Assembly (NCBI GenBank): GCA_035559535.1
Contig: DATMBG010000035.1
Coordinates: forward strand, 1-64,000
Direction of reading: 5' to 3'
Source: Candidatus Limnocylindrales bacterium
GTDB lineage: Bacteria; Moduliflexota; Moduliflexia; Moduliflexales; JAUQPW01
DNA: 64,000 nt
The translations under genes were made by a program, and so were the position numbers. Within the stretch, counting starts at the first letter, position 1; each line of letters starts with the position of its first letter. Of the stretch, positions 9,373 through 57,393 are shown piece after piece. The notes under the pieces are model-generated. The model was given only the letters and a program-made list of their open reading frames with translations. It did no database searches and had not been told where the DNA came from.

Positions 9373-12300
9373 TAATGGTCCAGGTACCATTTTCCTTCCG
9401 TTGGTCGCCAAACTGCCCGATCTGTTCTGCCATCCCCATCATAATCGGCCGGTACCGGAACATCTCCCTTCCGCCCCAATGGCTCTTTAACAGTAACTTC
9501 ACGGCTTGAGAACTTAATCTCCCATTCCCCTGAAGCCGGCTTAAAGATCCCTATATCTGTGAAGCCGTCCCCATCATAATCCCCAACCACCGGGAGGTCT
9601 CCCATCTGTCCCCAGGAGAGGATGCTAAATCCACCCGTTGATAACTGGATATACCATTTTCCTTCCGTTGGTCGCCAGATGGCCAAGTCGGTAATCTTAT
9701 CTCCATCATAATCGGCCGGTACAGGAATATCCCCACTTTGGCCCCATACTCTGGTGACGACAGCCCCTCCCCGGGAAGGTTTAATCCTCCAAATTCCGGT
9801 GGAAGGCCGGAAGACGGCCAGATCGGTCAGTCCATCTCCATCGTAATCCCCGGAAACGGGAATATCCAAGGCTTTTCCAAACCTTTTCATGAGCGTTCCT
9901 CCTGAAGATTTCTGAATGAACCAGGTTCCCGTGGAGGAGCGAAATACGGCAAAATCCGCTTTTTTATCTCCATCATAATCCCCTGTTACAGGCTGATCCC
10001 CCAAAACCCCCCAGGGTTGAATGAAAGGACTTGTACTTGAACTCAGCAAGAGATACCAATTCCCGTCAAAAGGCCGGAAGACGGCCAGATCTGCTTTGTT
10101 ATCTCCATCGTAATCCGCCGGCATCGGAATATCTCCGGCTATACCCCAACTTTGAGCCGTCTGTAAAGATGGAGAATCTGGGGCGGATGGATTAACCGGG
10201 TTAGAAACTGGAATAAGAGCCTGGGTAATGGTCGGAACGGGTATGGGGGTGGCCGTCGGAACAGGCGTCAGAGTAGCCGTCGGAACCGGAGTGGGGGTAG
10301 ATTTTGGGCGTGGTTTTGATTTAACTTTGGGGGTTGGCGTGGGAGTGGCCGTTGGAATCGGAGTTGGAACGGGAGTGGAAATCGGAGTTGGAACAAGAGG
10401 GGGAGTGGCCGTTGGAATCGGAGTGGAAGTTGGGGTGGAAGGAATGGAATCCGCTTCATAGGCCCCGATATCGATTCCATTACCATTGACCGGGCGTACG
10501 GTAAAACTCTGTTCGGTTACATACTGCCATTGGGGAACCACCGGGGGTATAATGCCGGCATCCACTACAGAGGCCCCAGGAGTCAGATGATAATCTTTAT
10601 TCACCATATCTACAAAACCCGGATTCGTTCCCAAAATGGTATCCGTAAAACCTGTTGGAACCACGGTACCGGTTTGAAACCAGTTGGACTGTCCCTGAAT
10701 GGTTCCCGTGGTATTACCTGAGCTTACTTTGGTACTTCCATAATAAATGTTGTTGATGACCGACGCAGAGGCAGAACCAGTCAGGGTGAAGAGGGGTGTC
10801 GTGTTAGACAAGGCTATGAGGGTATTATTATACATCTGTAAGGTCCCCTGTCGTCCATCATTGCCGAACAGGATCAGCAAGGACTGATTACCGGTACTCC
10901 CCTTCTCAATAATATTTCCGATCACCAGGGCATTCTGCGCTACTCCACCAGCTGAAGGGTTTCCGCTGAAGTCTAACTCATAACCCCCCTGCTGCGCATG
11001 ACTGATGTGATTGTAGGCAACTTCTACAGCAATCCCCTGGGAATCCGGCAATGAACGATCCTTGATGTTTATTCCTCCGATGGCATCGTGAATGTAGTTG
11101 AAGCGAATGTGGGTTCCGATACCCTGCATATAAAAGTTGTGCTCAAAACCATCCACGCCATTATAGGCGACTTCACAACCCTCGATAACTGTATTGGTCG
11201 CAGGGAGATAGGAGAAGATCCCGTTCGGATTGTGATGGATATAGCAATCCCGGAGGGTAATATTAGTCCCCAAGATGTAAACTGCACGGTTGTTTTTATC
11301 GGGTCCCGGCTGGACATTTCGTATTTCGATGTGTTGAAGCTCGATATCATGGCTCGTCGAATCAAACTTCCATAAATAACCGTAAGTATCTACATTGACA
11401 TTGGTGCCGTCCCATACGGCCCGTGTCGGATCTATACCTCTAATAATTACCGGATTTCCAGGTGTACCCGAGTGATTTCCGGTTAAGACAATCCGATCCT
11501 TGTAAATTCCGGTGGAGCGAATCTGCACGATATCTCCTCCGACCAGTTTCTTCGTAGCCAGAAGGGACGATAGGCTGTTATAAACATTCCCAGCTGGTGT
11601 GGCCGTTGCATCAACCGTATAAACGGTACCAGTTGAGGTTCCTAACGTTGTAAAGGTTAGATCTGAAGAAATGGCCAGATTACCTGCAGCGTCCCTAGAT
11701 TTAACTCGATAGTGATACAGGGTATTGGGGATCAGATTGGAGAGAATTTGAGAGTGAGAGAGCGTCAAAGTCGGATTCACAGAGGTGGATTGGCCATAAG
11801 CCGTCATCACGCCGTATTCGACCTGGGTATCGGAAACTTCACTGGTATTCCAGTTGATGGTCACACCAGATGAGGTCAGAGCAGTTAGGGTGATATTAAA
11901 AAGAGTAGGCGGGGTTATATCGGCCGGGGAAGGCGTCGGCGTGGGAGTTGAAGTCGCCGTTGGAGCAGGAGTCGGCGTAGATGTGGGAACAGGAGTGGGG
12001 ACGGGAGAAGAAGTAGCCTGGGCTACGTTGGACATGGCACTCATATTATCGGCCTGATCAAAGGTAAAGATGGCGGCATAGAAAGGAGTTGCAGAAGAAG
12101 GGTTAATAACCAGACTTTGCTGGGTTCCAGGGTTAGGAATCAGATTTGGACCCACGGCTTTTGCGGCCCACCAGTTTGTGACACTGGTATCTGGAGTACT
12201 CGTTTCAGAGATGGGTTTTGTACTCCAGACGATGTGATAACGGGCCAGGTCAGGAACTGCGGGGGCCGTCCAGGTTAATAGAATACTGGAACCGCTAATA

Positions 12301-15056: not shown

Positions 15057-15314
15057 AGCGGAGAAGCAAGGGATTTCTCTGAAGACTGGTTAAAACTCTT
15101 TTTAAGAATTTACCGGGTAGCACCTTCAGAAACGGAAACCAGATCCTTCTGTTTTGGATTGAGGAAATCAGGAAAGTAGTAAAAAATAAGGTAAAAAGCG
15201 GAAAGACTTAATTCTTGCTTTACGATTTCCTTCGGCAACCCTTCTACCATGGTAAAAATTTACTTTAGGTAGTGGTTTTCCGCCCCGCTCTTTCGAGTGG
15301 TTTAGCTTTATCGG

Positions 15315-15354
15315 GAAATAACCTGGGATACTCCCTTTGAGTATTCGTTATTTC
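15315..15354. repeat. Long imperfect inverted repeat
   Basis: GAAATAAC pairs with GTTATTTC, and GGATACTC with GAGTATTC, with a 3-base bulge and a 5-base loop. This 16-bp hairpin is not followed by a T run, so it is unlikely to be a simple terminator. Confidence 0.5.
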
Positions 15355-21391: not shown

Positions 21392-21817
21392 ATACCCGAT
21401 TATATGCCATATTAATTCCCCATGTGTAGGGGTGATCCCCCAGGCATCAAGTTAAGGATTAGACCTGGGGGCTAGACATCCCTCTAACCCCCTACACACC
21501 AGGATAAGAAGGTTAGCTCCGGCAGGACGACCTGTTTAACCGGTCGCTCCTCTATATCCCCCTTTCCCCCGCATGCGGGGGAAAGGGGGATATAGAGGAA
21601 AGGGGAGCTTCCTTCGGAGCTTGAAAAAATTCTGAATGATTGAATTCCCCCGATTTGTATCCGTTTGTATCCGGGACTACCCATGGTTCGTCCCTGACGG
21701 GGCTTTTCAGCTTAAGCTGGCACCTATGCCTCTGTGCCCCCTCAAGGGAGGGGGGAAGAGAGGTTCAGACCGAAAAGCGGGAAGGGGACCCAGGGGAGGG
21801 TCTGAGAGCAGGAAATC
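21392..21817. other. Convergent intergenic region filled by a family II element
   Basis: The spacer lies between the 3' ends of the deacetylase gene and the leftward second lyase-like gene. Most of it is the element at 21493-21726. Its left flank matches sequence beside the lone element ends near 5013 and 24506. No gene was recognised. Confidence 0.55.
21493..21726. mobile_element. Family II structured palindromic element, copy A
   Basis: Terminal inverted repeats TACACACCAGGATAAG and CTTAAGCTGGCACCTA bound 234 bp. The inside shares with copies B and C a CCTGTTTAAC hairpin, GAGCTTGAAAAA and a CTGACGGGGCTTTTCAG block. This copy is longer because of an inserted GCATGC-centred G/C palindrome (about 21540-21600) and a local duplication of TTTGTATCCG. 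Confidence 0.65.
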
Positions 21818-35327: not shown

Positions 35328-35634
35328 TTTTTCTGTACCTCCAGGTCTAGCAGGTCTGGCTGGTCTACACAAAAAGTGCCTAAATTCTTGGAGAAAGCAA
35401 CTTTTTCAGTTCTCATTTCTCCCTCTGGCATAGACCTTTCCTACCCGACCGAAAGCCAATCTGTTCAGAGTCCATGGGTTTTAATCTTCTTAGAAGAAAG
35501 GACTAGATATTTTTAAGATAAAATTTACTAAAAAATACCTCTAATGTAAAAAGATGTATTAAAAAGACAAAAGTTGCAAAAGATTCTACTACCTGAGTGA
35601 CAACGATTCTGAAGGAGGTATCCCCCCGCCCCCA

Positions 35635-35793
35635 TACGCGGCAAGATAAGAATGTTGGCCCCAACGGGCAACCTGCTTAACAGGATACAGCTCGGGAGCT
35701 TGAAAAAATTCTAAATCTCTGAATCTCCGATTTGCTTCGGAGGCTACCGACCATTCGCCTCTGACGGGGCTTTTCAGCTTAACCTGACGCGTA
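35635..35793. mobile_element. Family II structured palindromic element, copy B
   Basis: 159 bp, bounded by TACGCGGCAAGATAAG and CTTAACCTGACGCGTA, an imperfect inverted repeat. Internal CCTG/CAGG and CTCCGA/TCGGAG stems are present, and GAGCTTGAAAAA pairs with the block ending CTTTTCAGCTT. It is the same length as copy C. Confidence 0.7.
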
Positions 35794-36053
35794 TGCTCCC
35801 TGTTCTCCCATCCAAGATGGTTAAAGAAGGAATAAATTTACCTTAAAATTATAATTATCTATCTATAAGTATAAATTATTCTAAATTAAGTCAACTGTAA
35901 AATAGGCAAATTATATGCCAATTTTGTATAAAATAAGTAAAAATTGAAAGCTGTCGATTTTGGTAGACGGGAAAAAGGGGAATTCAAGGGCAGGGCGATT
36001 TTAACAGTTGCCTTCAAGACGGAAATAACTTCAGCTTCGGAAAGAAAGAAGAA

Positions 36054-36088
36054 AGCTAAAAAGGGGTTTTTCCTGACCCTTTTTAGCT
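36054..36088 (-). terminator. Intrinsic terminator of the thiamine operon
   Basis: AGCTAAAAAGGG and CCCTTTTTAGCT form a 12-13 bp stem about 50 bp past the thiY stop. On the leftward strand the last arm is T-rich. Confidence 0.65.
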
Positions 36089-36137
36089 AAAAAATATCCA
36101 AACCGGTAGGAGCCATCCCCGGAATGGCCCTTAAACT

Positions 36138-37151
36138 TTAAGGTAAAAATTCATTGGTAAACATGCCGGAAACCTTTGTTTTTTGCTTAATTAATCCCAT
36201 ATCCATCATAAAATCCTGAAGCTCTTGCCATTTGGCTTCCGTTTGCCAGCCAACCTTAGGAACACTGTTTTTCATAAGGGGAATCAATGCTACCAAAGAT
36301 CTCTGAGCCAAATCCTTTCTAAGATCTGGATTTTGTTTAAGTAAAATCCCAAGTGCCTCGTCTGGATGGGTCATGGTAAAATCTAACCCCTTCCAGGCTG
36401 CCCGCATAAAACGTCGAATGAGATCGGGGTTTTCTTGAATAAGTTTTTCATTGGTCAACAAAACAGATTCATAAAAATCGGGAACCCCATAATCCTGAAG
36501 TTTAATCATATTCACTTCAAATCCTTCCAGCTCAATTTGAATTTTTTCCCAAACCGAGTAGGTCCCGATAACGGCATCGATCTGTTTGGTCAATAAAGGT
36601 TGAACCAGATTAAATCCTACGTCCACAACGGTGTAATCACTTCCTTTACGCAGTCCCATCCCCCCCAGAATTTTTTCCAGGTAGGCATCATCGGAGGGAA
36701 TAAGAGGGGAACCGATCTTTTTACCCTTTAAATCGGATGGCTTTGTAATACCCGATTCCTTTAAGGAAAGAATTACATTCAAGGGGTGTTGAACAATAGC
36801 TGCAATGGAAACAACGGGAAGACCCTCTGATCGCCCCAGAATCGTATCAATCTGATAACTCAACCCGAAATGATCCTGGCCGGCTGCCACCAACTTGATG
36901 GTATCTTCTGGATTAGAAGGAACATAAAGATTTACGTCTAGATTTTCATCGGCGAAATATCCTTTTTCCTTTGCAACGAACAGAAAGGTATGCAAAGACC
37001 AGGGAGTCCAATCCAGACGCAAAGAAACTTTGGCTCGTTGCTCATTGTCTTTTTCTGCTCCCTGAAGTCCAACAGGTCCGATAAAAACGGTTAAAGTGCA
37101 TAGACTTGCCAGGAAAACAAAAAAAATTTGCCTTTTAGATAAATATCGCAT
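36138..37151 (-). CDS. thiY: ABC transporter substrate-binding protein, NMT1/THI5-like (pyrimidine precursor uptake)
   Basis: 337 residues. A signal peptide of about 30 residues precedes a periplasmic domain of the NMT1/THI5 type: V-S-L-R-L-D-W-T-P-W-S-L-H, then A-K-E-K-G-Y-F, a D-x-F-G-L-S-Y-Q segment and G-K-K-I-G-S-P. ThiY relatives bind formylaminopyrimidine, a breakdown product of thiamine. The gene ends the riboswitch-controlled operon, which also contains the permease and ATPase. AAAGGAC lies before the ATG. A related sulfonate- or nitrate-type specificity is the alternative, but the context argues against it. Confidence 0.85.
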   Translation of the reverse strand: MRYLSKRQIFFVFLASLCTLTVFIGPVGLQGAEKDNEQRAKVSLRLDWTPWSLHTFLFVAKEKGYFADENLDVNLYVPSNPEDTIKLVAAGQDHFGLSYQIDTILGRSEGLPVVSIAAIVQHPLNVILSLKESGITKPSDLKGKKIGSPLIPSDDAYLEKILGGMGLRKGSDYTVVDVGFNLVQPLLTKQIDAVIGTYSVWEKIQIELEGFEVNMIKLQDYGVPDFYESVLLTNEKLIQENPDLIRRFMRAAWKGLDFTMTHPDEALGILLKQNPDLRKDLAQRSLVALIPLMKNSVPKVGWQTEAKWQELQDFMMDMGLIKQKTKVSGMFTNEFLP

Positions 37152-37156
37152 CGTCC

Positions 37157-37217
37157 TTTTATCCTGGGCCTGTTGCCCGTAGTCCAGAGTCTACCTCCAC
37201 AAACAACGGACAACAAG
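37157..37217. repeat. Intergenic inverted repeat, GTTGTCCGTTGT family
   Basis: CTGTTGCCCGTAGTCC faces CAAACAACGGACAACAAG in inverted orientation. Similar GAACAACGG/CCGTTGTTC pairs recur at 31111-31227, 42062-42180 and 44085-44143, and a related pair lies at 50314-50396. Confidence 0.5.
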
Positions 37218-37229
37218 CGGCAGGTCCTC

Positions 37230-38237
37230 TTAAGCAAAATGATCCCAGCTTTTAGCTTCTAACGGCAAGACGGTCCCATCCCTGCCGATTAATTTGTTAC
37301 CTTTCCCGGGCACCTGGATCTTTCCGATCGAGGTTACTTCTATGGAAATCTCTTTATGCAGGGTGGAGACGATCCTTTCCACTTTCTCTTCAGGTGCTGT
37401 GAATAAAAGCTGATAATCTTCTCCTCCGTATAAAGCCCAATCCAGAGGATCTTTGTGATTTTCTTCAGCTAACCTCCTCACGATATCGGAGATAGGAACT
37501 TTATCCATCCAGATCTCAACGCTTACCCGACTGACTTCACAGATTCGCTGAATATCTCCGGCCAGGCCATCACTTATATCGATCATAGCGGTAATGCATT
37601 GAAGGCCTGCCAGGACTTGACCGGCCCGGATTTGGGGCTCAGGAGTCAAATAAGCTTCTATCAAAGGTTCCACGTTTATATTTCCGGGTTCAACATTTCC
37701 CAGAAGGATTTGAAGCCCGGCTGCGGCTTTCCCTAGAGTTCCTGTAACCAAAACTATATCCCCGGGTTTTGCCCCCGATCGCAAAAGAACCCGTTCAGGA
37801 ACTACCGTCCCTAACAGGGTTACATCGATAAAGATTTCTTTCGAAGACCGGGCTAGATTCCCTCCTACGATACAGGCGCCAAAACGACCGAAGGATTCCT
37901 TCATGCCCTTATAAAGTTCCTCAACAAATTCCACCGTTGTATGGATGGGCAAAGCCAGAGAAATAAGGGCATAGCGGGGACTCCCCCCCATGGCAGCAAT
38001 ATCGCTTAAGTTGATGGCGGCTACCCGTTTCCCCAACTGATAAGGAGTAATTTTCTCCTTCAAGAAGTGTCTTCCTTCAATTTGCACATCACAGGTCGCC
38101 AGCAGAAGTTGATCTCCTGAGACGTTGAGAACTGCCGTATCGTCTCCAATTCCGATAACTTCTCCAGGTCCTTTATTTCCAATGATCTGTTTAATTCGTT
38201 GGATTAAACCAAATTCTCCAAGTTCGGTAATGAGCAT
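37230..38237 (-). CDS. thiL: Thiamine-monophosphate kinase
   Basis: 335 residues, the usual length. It starts L-G-E-F-G-L-I and has the metal/ATP motif G-D-D-T-A-V-L near residue 40. The conserved K-R-V-A-A-I-N-L-S-D-I-A-A-M-G-G segment, G-G-N-L-A-R-S and I-D-I-S-D-G-L-A follow. It phosphorylates thiamine phosphate to thiamine diphosphate, the final step of the pathway encoded upstream. It is separated from thiE-1 by a composite of repeat elements. Confidence 0.93.
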   Translation of the reverse strand: MLITELGEFGLIQRIKQIIGNKGPGEVIGIGDDTAVLNVSGDQLLLATCDVQIEGRHFLKEKITPYQLGKRVAAINLSDIAAMGGSPRYALISLALPIHTTVEFVEELYKGMKESFGRFGACIVGGNLARSSKEIFIDVTLLGTVVPERVLLRSGAKPGDIVLVTGTLGKAAAGLQILLGNVEPGNINVEPLIEAYLTPEPQIRAGQVLAGLQCITAMIDISDGLAGDIQRICEVSRVSVEIWMDKVPISDIVRRLAEENHKDPLDWALYGGEDYQLLFTAPEEKVERIVSTLHKEISIEVTSIGKIQVPGKGNKLIGRDGTVLPLEAKSWDHFA

Positions 38238-38591
38238 GTTTGAAAGAGAGTGGAGTAGTGCTTTGTTACTTTAATTTTGCTTAATGTTTAAGTGACCCTC
38301 ACCCCTGGCCCCTCTCCCACGCTGCGGGAGAGGGGAGTTGGGGAGTGAAAGCAGCCCTATGAGGTCAAAATTAAGGTAACAGTGTAGTAGTACTCTGTTT
38401 ACTTAGTTTTGTTTAACGTTTAAGTGGTCCTCACCCCCCGGCTTCCCTACGTGCCAGGATAAGAAAAATAGACCCAGCGGGGCAACCTGTTTCACAGGCC
38501 GCTGCTACAGAGCCTGAAAAAATGAAGAAACCCCCCTTCCCGACTTACGTCGGGGGCTACCCAGGGTTCACCCCTGACGGGGTTTTTCAGC
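38238..38591. other. thiE-1/thiL spacer made of two repeat families
   Basis: A complete family I element (38265-38380), a half copy of family I (38397-38440) and a complete family II element (38448-38606) are packed end to end inside the thi operon. No gene or promoter is visible besides these. Confidence 0.6.
38265..38380. mobile_element. Family I palindromic element (MITE-like), copy 2
   Basis: 116 bp from GTTACTTTAATTTTGC to TCAAAATTAAGGTAAC, which are terminal inverted repeats. The shared core GGGAGTTG...GGTGAAAGC is seen when aligned with the reverse complement of copy 1. A further half copy begins at 38397 with GTTTACTTAGTTTTG. Confidence 0.7.
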
Positions 38592-38606
38592 TTAACCCGG
38601 CGCGTA
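38448..38606. mobile_element. Family II structured palindromic element, copy C
   Basis: 159 bp bounded by TACGTGCCAGGATAAG and CTTAACCCGGCGCGTA. An AGCGG/CCGCT plus CCTGT/ACAGG nested stem, a CCCGA/TCGGG stem and a GCCTGAAAAA/TTTTTCAGC pairing are present. Its right terminus contains the stop codon and last four codons of thiE-1. Confidence 0.72.
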
Positions 38607-39299
38607 TGTCCCCGGTCCCTTTCCTGAAGCTTCGGGAGAGGGGATTTTGATTGCTTTGAGCCCTTTGATTCCACGGATCTTAGCCAGCAAGCTCCGGGTT
38701 GCTTCTTTAATATCCTCCGCACCGACGACGGCAGAAACCACCGCCACCCCATCTGCACCGGCTCGCAGCACTTCTTCCACATTTCCATAATTAATTCCCC
38801 CGATGGCCACCACAGGAATTTTAACATGGGCTTTAATTTCGGCTAAAAGACGCGTGCCTATGGGAGCTCCTGCATCACTTTTTGTAGAGGTGGCAAAGAT
38901 AGATCCTACCCCCAGATAACTGGCTCCTTCTTCTTCAGCCCGGAGGGCTTCTTCCAGGGTTCCTGCCGAAGCACCGATAATGGCATGGGGGCCAAGGATT
39001 TTTCTGGCCAGATGAACCGGCATATCTTCCGGACCTACATGAACGCCATCGGCCTCTACGGCCAGGGCAATATCAACCCGATCGTTGATAATCAGAACAA
39101 CGCCCTTTTCCCGGGTTAAGCGTCGAAGTTGTTGGCCGATATCGATCAATTGACGAGAATTAGCTTCCTTATCCCGAAGCTGAATGACCGGAGCCCCTCC
39201 TTCTATGGCTTCCCGAACCACATCCAGATGCGAGCGGCCTTTGGCTAATCTCTTATCAGTTAACACATGTAAATCCATCTTCTGTAAACTCGGGTTCAT
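38592..39299 (-). CDS. thiE: Thiamine-phosphate synthase (copy 1)
   Basis: 235 residues with the TIM-barrel ThiE motifs: V-I-Q-L-R-D-K-E, I-I-N-D-R-V-D-I-A, D-G-V-H-V-G, the V-G-S-I-F-A-T-S-T-K diphosphate loop and A-I-G-G-I. It joins hydroxymethylpyrimidine diphosphate with thiazole phosphate. The last four residues (Y-A-P-G) and the TAA stop lie within the terminal repeat of family II element C, and the Ser/Pro/Lys-rich tail before them is also longer than usual. It has typical ThiE loops, unlike copy 2. Confidence 0.9.
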   Translation of the reverse strand: MNPSLQKMDLHVLTDKRLAKGRSHLDVVREAIEGGAPVIQLRDKEANSRQLIDIGQQLRRLTREKGVVLIINDRVDIALAVEADGVHVGPEDMPVHLARKILGPHAIIGASAGTLEEALRAEEEGASYLGVGSIFATSTKSDAGAPIGTRLLAEIKAHVKIPVVAIGGINYGNVEEVLRAGADGVAVVSAVVGAEDIKEATRSLLAKIRGIKGLKAIKIPSPEASGKGPGTYAPG

Positions 39300-44982: not shown

Positions 44983-45069
44983 AAATTTTTTAAAAAGAAA
45001 AGGTAGACTACTTCCTTATCAATCGTTAAGGTATACGTCCACGCGTTTCTCTATCTATAAAATCTTAAC

Positions 45070-45171
45070 CGCTTCCCTACGCTGGTATTACCCAGATCAG
45101 GTTCAGAGGGTTTCCGGTTCCCAGGGAATTTCCCTTAAGAACCGAGTTCTCAGCCTTAAAAACTCCCCTAG
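45070..45171 (-). ncRNA. TPP riboswitch (THI element)
   Basis: Read leftward it shows the conserved parts in order: CTAGGGGAG, GGCTGAGAA, a variable stem, ACCCTCTGAACCTGATCTGG and GTAATACCAGCGTAGGGAAG. These are the P2/P4 signature strings of the TPP aptamer. It sits between a good promoter and thiD and so controls the ten-gene thi operon. Confidence 0.95.
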
Positions 45172-45183
45172 CGATTTAATTTA

Positions 45184-57019: not shown

Positions 57020-57379
57020 GGGGGCGACAGGTTTCGACGGGGTTAGTTGAGGCATCAGCGGCATGTCGAGGTCCTGTTATCTCGTAAAACAAGCAGGAAA
57101 AAAACAACTGCTGACACTTATTCTACGCAGGAATACGCTTTAGCTGCCTAGTGCAGCTAACGCTCCTTCACCCAGGCCTGCAGGAGTGAAGCGGGCGTAA
57201 TAAAGCAGGCTGGCTTATCTTCTCGGTTCGGAGGAAGGTAAGCGAAAACGCATCCGAACTGGCATCTTCCAAGTCCTGCCGATGGGACCCGGAGGATGTG
57301 AGAAAAAAAACATCGGCTAAGCATGTAGAGGCTGATCGCCGAATAATCTCGGACGCGGGTTCGATTCCCGCCGCCTCCA
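57020..57379 (+). ncRNA. ssrA: Transfer-messenger RNA (tmRNA)
   Basis: 5' end GGGGGCGACAGGTTTCGACGG and 3' end GGTTCGATTCCCGCCGCCTCCA form the alanyl-tRNA-like acceptor (GGGGGCG with CGCCTCC, one G-T pair) and T arm. The reading frame ends ...Y-A-L-A-A-stop at 57149-57151. The tag most likely begins A-D-T-Y-S-T-Q-E-Y, with resume codon GCT at about 57110. CCA is not encoded. A strong terminator follows. It rescues stalled ribosomes with SmpB. Confidence 0.95.
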
Positions 57380-57393
57380 TTAATTTCTCTCAT

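Follow-up and report, generated by a model that had tools for sequence, protein, structure and literature searches.

ERIC/IRU, BOX and similar MITEs are imperfect palindromes of 100-200 bp that lie between genes in dozens of copies, and variants of the ERIC/IRU and BOX type have additional blocks at constant internal positions. In the IS4 family, the IS231 subgroup has ends of the form CAT-------AA--TAA---, and its direct repeats are 10-12 bp long (De Palmenaer et al. 2008, Table 1, PMC2266710). It is found almost exclusively in the Bacillus cereus group, and non-autonomous derivatives are known for it, MIC231 cassettes among others (PMC2266710; PMC6542083). REPs are smaller, 20-40 bp, and those of the GTAG class carry a GTAG tag before the palindrome (PMC3733652).

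Like the ERIC/IRU and BOX type, the repeat described here is an intergenic imperfect palindrome in the 100-200 bp range, occurs in dozens of copies and has variants with such blocks, but it differs from that type in its sequence and ends and in having an assignable duplication length and end signature. It resembles the IS231 subgroup in its ends (CAT......A...TAA) and in its duplication (11 bp), and it is non-autonomous, like the IS231 derivatives. Unlike these, it is an element of ~163 bp with neither gene nor passenger that sits in G-run targets on one strand, its host lineage lies outside the B. cereus group, and no transposase was found with it. On the minus strand, one of its internal hairpins bears the tag of GTAG REPs (PMC3733652), whereas its terminal inverted repeats, 11-bp duplication, unit size and lack of a Y1 transposase set it apart from REPs and RAYTs. 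We consider it probable that the family as a whole is a decaying MITE with IS4/IS231-type ends, and highly probable that it is a MITE moved by some DDE transposase. The kind of element is already known; what is new is a family that appears to be restricted to one genus. A striking structured repeat is thereby accounted for as a derivative of a transposon, and the range of IS231-type ends widens to a lineage that is poorly sampled.

The repeat unit and its distribution

The window comprises bases 1-64000 of contig C35 from a 5.6 Mb draft genome (G000). An earlier note on this DNA described three copies with inverted ends, B (35635-35793) and C (38448-38606), both of 159 bp, and A (21493-21726), of 234 bp and lengthened by an insertion. 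These lengths and ends are borne out, and copy A indeed contains a 62-bp palindromic insert. The 159 bp of B and C lie between TAC and GTA; the true unit extends two bases further on either side and runs C[A/C]TACG...CGTATG.

21491-21728, plus strand: copy A, full unit, long form with the 62-bp hairpin insert
21553-21614, plus strand: insert of copy A, TATATCCCCCTTTCCCCCGCATGCGGGGGAAAGGGGGATATA...CTTCCTT, at the tip of a CTCC/GGAG hairpin; missing in the orthologue of A (L032)
35633-35795, plus strand: copy B, full unit, beginning with CATACG and ending with CGTATG
38446-38608, plus strand: copy C, full unit between a thiE-like and a thiL-like gene, without counterpart in the sister species
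38592-38594, minus strand: stop codon of the thiE-like gene (38592-39299, minus strand), supplied by the right end of copy C

The family unit can be written C[A/C]TACGCGCCAGGATAAGAAGG...CTTAACCTGGCGCGTATG (~163 bp), with termini, from the flank analysis below, of C[A/C]TACGCGCCAGGATAAG and its inverse. Collection of copies by blastn, a check that the note had proposed, yielded 40 places in the window's genome. The end motif GCGCCAGGWTAAG, allowing at most one mismatch, had 154 matches there and 144 in the same-genus genome G001 (the sister species), against 7 and 9 respectively for a reversed-pattern control; half of the 154 gives an estimate of ~75 copies. In stretches picked for holding such ends, 57 merged loci were obtained from 1.2 Mb of G000 and 38 from 0.74 Mb of G001, at E <= 1e-5. 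Full copies have the inverted ends and are mostly 144-165 bp long, the longer copies having additional blocks at set positions inside the element. The copies are decayed, with 25 substitutions from the consensus in B and 27 in C. Short, non-coding and multi-copy, with terminal inverted repeats and a target duplication, the family has the properties of a MITE.

The full element was found in two of 59 genomes searched, the window's and G001, with no full-element match in the other 57, and as far as these genomes show the family would be genus-restricted. Exact public-record matches to part of the repeat came only from the MAG 'bacterium isolate JZ-2.bins.100.201901', which is the same-genus genome G001, and the viral contigs searched gave no match to the repeat.

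Although ORFs (crudely predicted for these counts) cover 81% of the DNA, 81 of 85 copies are intergenic, with an ORF overlap of less than a quarter. Between tandem gene pairs, 16 copies run the same way as the genes and 21 opposite, that is, with no orientation bias. Copy C lies in a thiamine gene cluster, between the thiE-like (Pfam TMP-TENI) and thiL-like (Pfam AIRS) genes. The spacer stretch that holds it is 407 bp long in the window, against 42 bp in G001, and the C-terminus of the thiE-like protein is altered by the copy relative to G001. Elsewhere in the window lie a tmRNA (57020-57382), a TPP riboswitch (45057-45179) and a c-di-GMP-I riboswitch (15231-15316). At two pairs of loci (L033 and L114, L037 and L121), a copy is present at about the same place in both species in opposite orientation, through either independent insertion or inversion.

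Target duplications, ends and the putative transposase

For 47 full copies, with element boundaries set at C[A/C]TACG...CGTATG, the two flanks were compared with re-paired ones. Similarity between the two sides was direct, and inverted similarity was in deficit. A unit extending outward past these ends was discarded, inverted similarity beyond them being depleted (z about -3). The direct match peaks at 11 bp, with 245 of 517 matches (0.47 against 0.31 in re-paired flanks, z = 5.7), and drops off on either side (z = 1.4 at 9, 3.2 at 13); the value of 5.7 is somewhat inflated, as the ends were picked after several registers had been scanned, a few of the 47 copies are orthologous pairs, and re-pairing takes out the G/C-rich bias of the flanks only in part. 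Nine copies match at 9-10 of the 11 positions where 0.83 are expected. Flank pairs such as GAGGCAAGGGG/GGGGCAAGGGG, GGGTTAGGGAA/GGGTTAGGGAG and CCCTCGCTCCC/TCCTCGCTCCC illustrate the duplication. A TA dinucleotide duplication in the style of IS630/Tc1, which would suit ends that begin with TA, was dropped since the 11-bp register is far stronger. The corresponding positions in the window are as follows.

35622-35632, no strand: left target-duplication position of B, eroded, CCCCCCGCCCC, matching the right position at 6/11
35796-35806, no strand: right target-duplication position of B, CTCCCTGTTCT
38435-38445, no strand: left 11-bp target duplication of C, CCCCCGGCTTC, matching the right copy at 7/11
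38609-38619, no strand: right 11-bp target duplication of C, TCCCCGGTCCC

By our own count copy B matches at 6/11 and copy A at 5/11, and as single copies the eroded A and B are weak evidence. Among the flanking 11-mers, 64 of 94 are G-run/G-run or C-run/C-run and 9 are mixed, giving a target pattern of GGG-N5-GGG on one strand. The target of IS231A is GGG-N5-CCC, unlike the same-strand G runs of this family.

One locus offers a comparison of occupied and empty states. The element at L107 is flanked by CCCTCGTTTTC and CCCTCGTTTCT, whereas the sister species (L152) has a single CCCTCTCGTTCCCC and no element, with sequence that is diverged yet alignable on both sides of the join. L152 is apparently the unfilled site of this element, precise loss in the sister species being a possible alternative. 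The locus of copy C was rejected as a clean unfilled site, as the whole spacer differs from that of the sister species, and for copy B the comparison stops where the sister contig ends at the orthologous locus.

The consensus end CATACGCGCCAGGATAAG agrees with the IS231 signature at seven of its eight fixed positions, position 12 being G rather than A. A random 18-mer would reach 7/8 with a probability of ~4e-4, by our own arithmetic and uncorrected for the number of IS subgroups open to comparison. The 11-bp peak falls within the 10-12 bp of the IS231 subgroup, and the ends of a second repeat family in the same genome, CATAGGCATCAAGCTAAG, agree at all eight positions by our own count. A match to a known IS end was one of the results that the note had set against its own reading, and this is what we see in part: the ends and the duplication length fit a subgroup signature.

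No IS4-family transposase (a DDE enzyme with a Y-R-E-K motif; PF01609, NF033592) was detected in the window's draft genome, and no full-size element with the family's ends in its 1.2 Mb of sampled DNA. IS4-type transposases were matched in G001, as fragments, and in relatives at order level, and none had such ends where flanks were available; G001 and the window's genome are both incomplete. Metagenome binning often loses IS copies, so the absence of a transposase is weak evidence.

The end signature and the duplication length point to a putative transposase of IS4-family type. It is unlikely that a DDE transposase of another family, also making duplications of ~11 bp, moved this MITE and that the IS231-like ends arose by convergence. 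The missing transposase, an end match that at 7/8 is suggestive but short of proof, and a target pattern unlike that of IS231 would fit such an origin; against it, the signature occurs at the right spacing in two separate repeat families of the window's genome, and the duplication length is that of IS231.

To account for what is observed (inverted ends, 11-bp duplications, one site that appears unfilled, a presence restricted to the lineage, and decay of the copies), we propose the following history. A DDE transposase, presumably of IS4-family type and supplied in trans from a source that may now be lost, unassembled or unbinned, would have attached to the inverted ends and placed the unit in targets with G or C runs (GGG-N5-GGG on one strand), each insertion creating an 11-bp duplication. 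The inserted copies would then have decayed where they stood. Their internal hairpins are probably a legacy of the founding sequence, since modified by replication errors templated on the palindrome, and not something that selection on a fold has maintained.

The fold and its variation

The feature that had drawn attention to the repeat was the third internal stem of copies B and C.

35725-35742, plus strand: third stem of B, CTCCGA-TTTGCT-TCGGAG in the sequence (arms 35725-35730 and 35737-35742)
38538-38555, plus strand: third stem of C, TCCCGA-CTTACG-TCGGGG in the sequence (arms 38538-38543 and 38550-38555)

Both stems, their 6-base loops and one compensatory pair, T-A to C-G, are as the earlier note described. 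The outermost pair is C-G in B and T.G in C, which pairs in RNA and is a mismatch in DNA. That this retained pairing reflects selection on the fold does not follow. Palindromes decay and can be re-templated by template switching, and a single compensatory pair between two copies is therefore no evidence for a selected fold.

Across the family, matching changes are no commoner than chance. The covariance check called for in the note was carried out on 31 copies with 500 shuffles. Pairs with double changes numbered 12, where shuffles gave 9.5 +- 2.1 and 82/500 of them reached 12, and the covariation score was reached by 76/500. The proportion of paired cells was 88.0% against 87.6%, reached by 25/500, a weak excess that relatedness of the copies can give. 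The RNAalifold covariation term, at -0.21, was about zero. The consensus strand folds at -86.2 kcal/mol (z = -8.65) into a long imperfect palindrome crowned by hairpins, and much of this fold is lost in B (-50.1, z = -2.3) and C (-63.4, z = -3.7). Random placement of each copy's substitutions gave nearly equal energy, the actual copies being slightly better (mean z -0.56), although this null ignores uneven substitution along the element; there may thus be slight constraint on the fold. The three lowest placement values belong to L081, L059 and L042, all of which have an inverted third-stem loop (GCAA/ACAA, not TTGC).

It is accordingly very improbable that the repeat is a structured RNA or cis-regulatory element under selection on its fold. 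The strongly folding consensus, the small energy advantage of the copies and the compensatory pair would favour this, but covariation does not exceed that in shuffles, the best placement values are those of copies with the inverted loop, the folds of B and C are degraded, orientation to genes is random and Rfam gave no match for the repeat at gathering threshold.

The inverted loop occurs in about 11 of ~54 classifiable copies, and the orthologous pair L112/L166 differs by this inversion, as do L083 and L059. Polymerase template switching between inverted repeats leaves arm homogenisation and spacer inversion as its marks (PMC8604942), and compensatory changes can also arise by it (PMC8794818). 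This suggests template switching as the source of the loop inversions, and it may likewise have made the third-stem difference between B and C.

The note had also considered a substrate of a REP-type transposase. A transposase substrate is supported; the REP type is not, since full-length inverted ends with 11-bp target duplications are the behaviour of a DDE transposon. Spread of a REP/BIME-like element by a RAYT (a Y1 HuH transposase) acting on single-strand hairpins is largely refuted and scarcely credible: the minus strand of the third stem does read GGTAG-CCCCCGAC-GCAA-GTCGGGGG, with a GTAG tag ahead of the palindrome, but the RAYT/TnpA_REP domain (PF01797) is absent from the window's genome while being found in 5 of 14 control genomes, the mobile unit is the whole 163 bp, and the GTAG hairpins listed outside the family have a different palindrome. 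A dispersed GTAG REP matching the third stem was dropped on the same grounds, the listed outside hits being GTAGGGGC..GCCCCTAC.

Hairpin inserts and neighbouring repeat families

Several copies in the window's genome, like copy A, carry a hairpin of ~60 bp (..CCCCCGCATGCGGGGG..ATATAGAGGAAAGGGGGGCTTCCTT) at one tip, CTCCTC^CGGAG. Inserts with the tail ATATAGAGGAAAGGGGGGCTTCCTT occur at this tip in L063, L071, L083, L090 and L112 among those listed, and also in a few contexts outside family copies, apparently in other hairpins. None was seen in the 0.74 Mb of G001, and three orthologous pairs are long in G000 and short in G001 (A/L032, L112/L166 and L083/L160). Insertion, gene conversion or parallel loss could give this difference; for copy A we favour insertion because ortholog-specific bases (AACCGG) ~10 bp away are kept, which would speak against simple gene conversion. 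That a second process, besides ordinary MITE movement, adds small hairpins at the tips of hairpins already present seems doubtful; if true, it would represent a hairpin-tip-specific insertion mechanism.

Several MITE-like families lie side by side in the intergenic DNA of this poorly sampled lineage. The second family, ~159 bp long with the IS231-type ends CATACGCATCAAGCTAAG, is present at L071:7870-8028 and at ~21437-21470 of the window, where its end adjoins copy A. Within 250 bp of 41 of the 85 copies there is a piece of another searched repeat type, with the same type on both sides in three; nesting in other repeats is therefore seen in cases and is not a rule. One such case is L170 in G001, where a copy of the present element is nested in a third family (ends near GTAACTGTAACAATTTAGTAGGTG / CACCTACTAAATTG; around 9555-9760, compared with L118). 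The whole 306-bp insertion, bordered on both sides by the 8-bp direct repeat TTTGTTCT, is missing in G000, and L118 is apparently a clean unfilled site of the third family. A dispersed palindrome, GTAGGGGCRCAAGGCCTTGYGCCCCTAC, unrelated to the present family, was also observed in L071, L077, L068 and L069.
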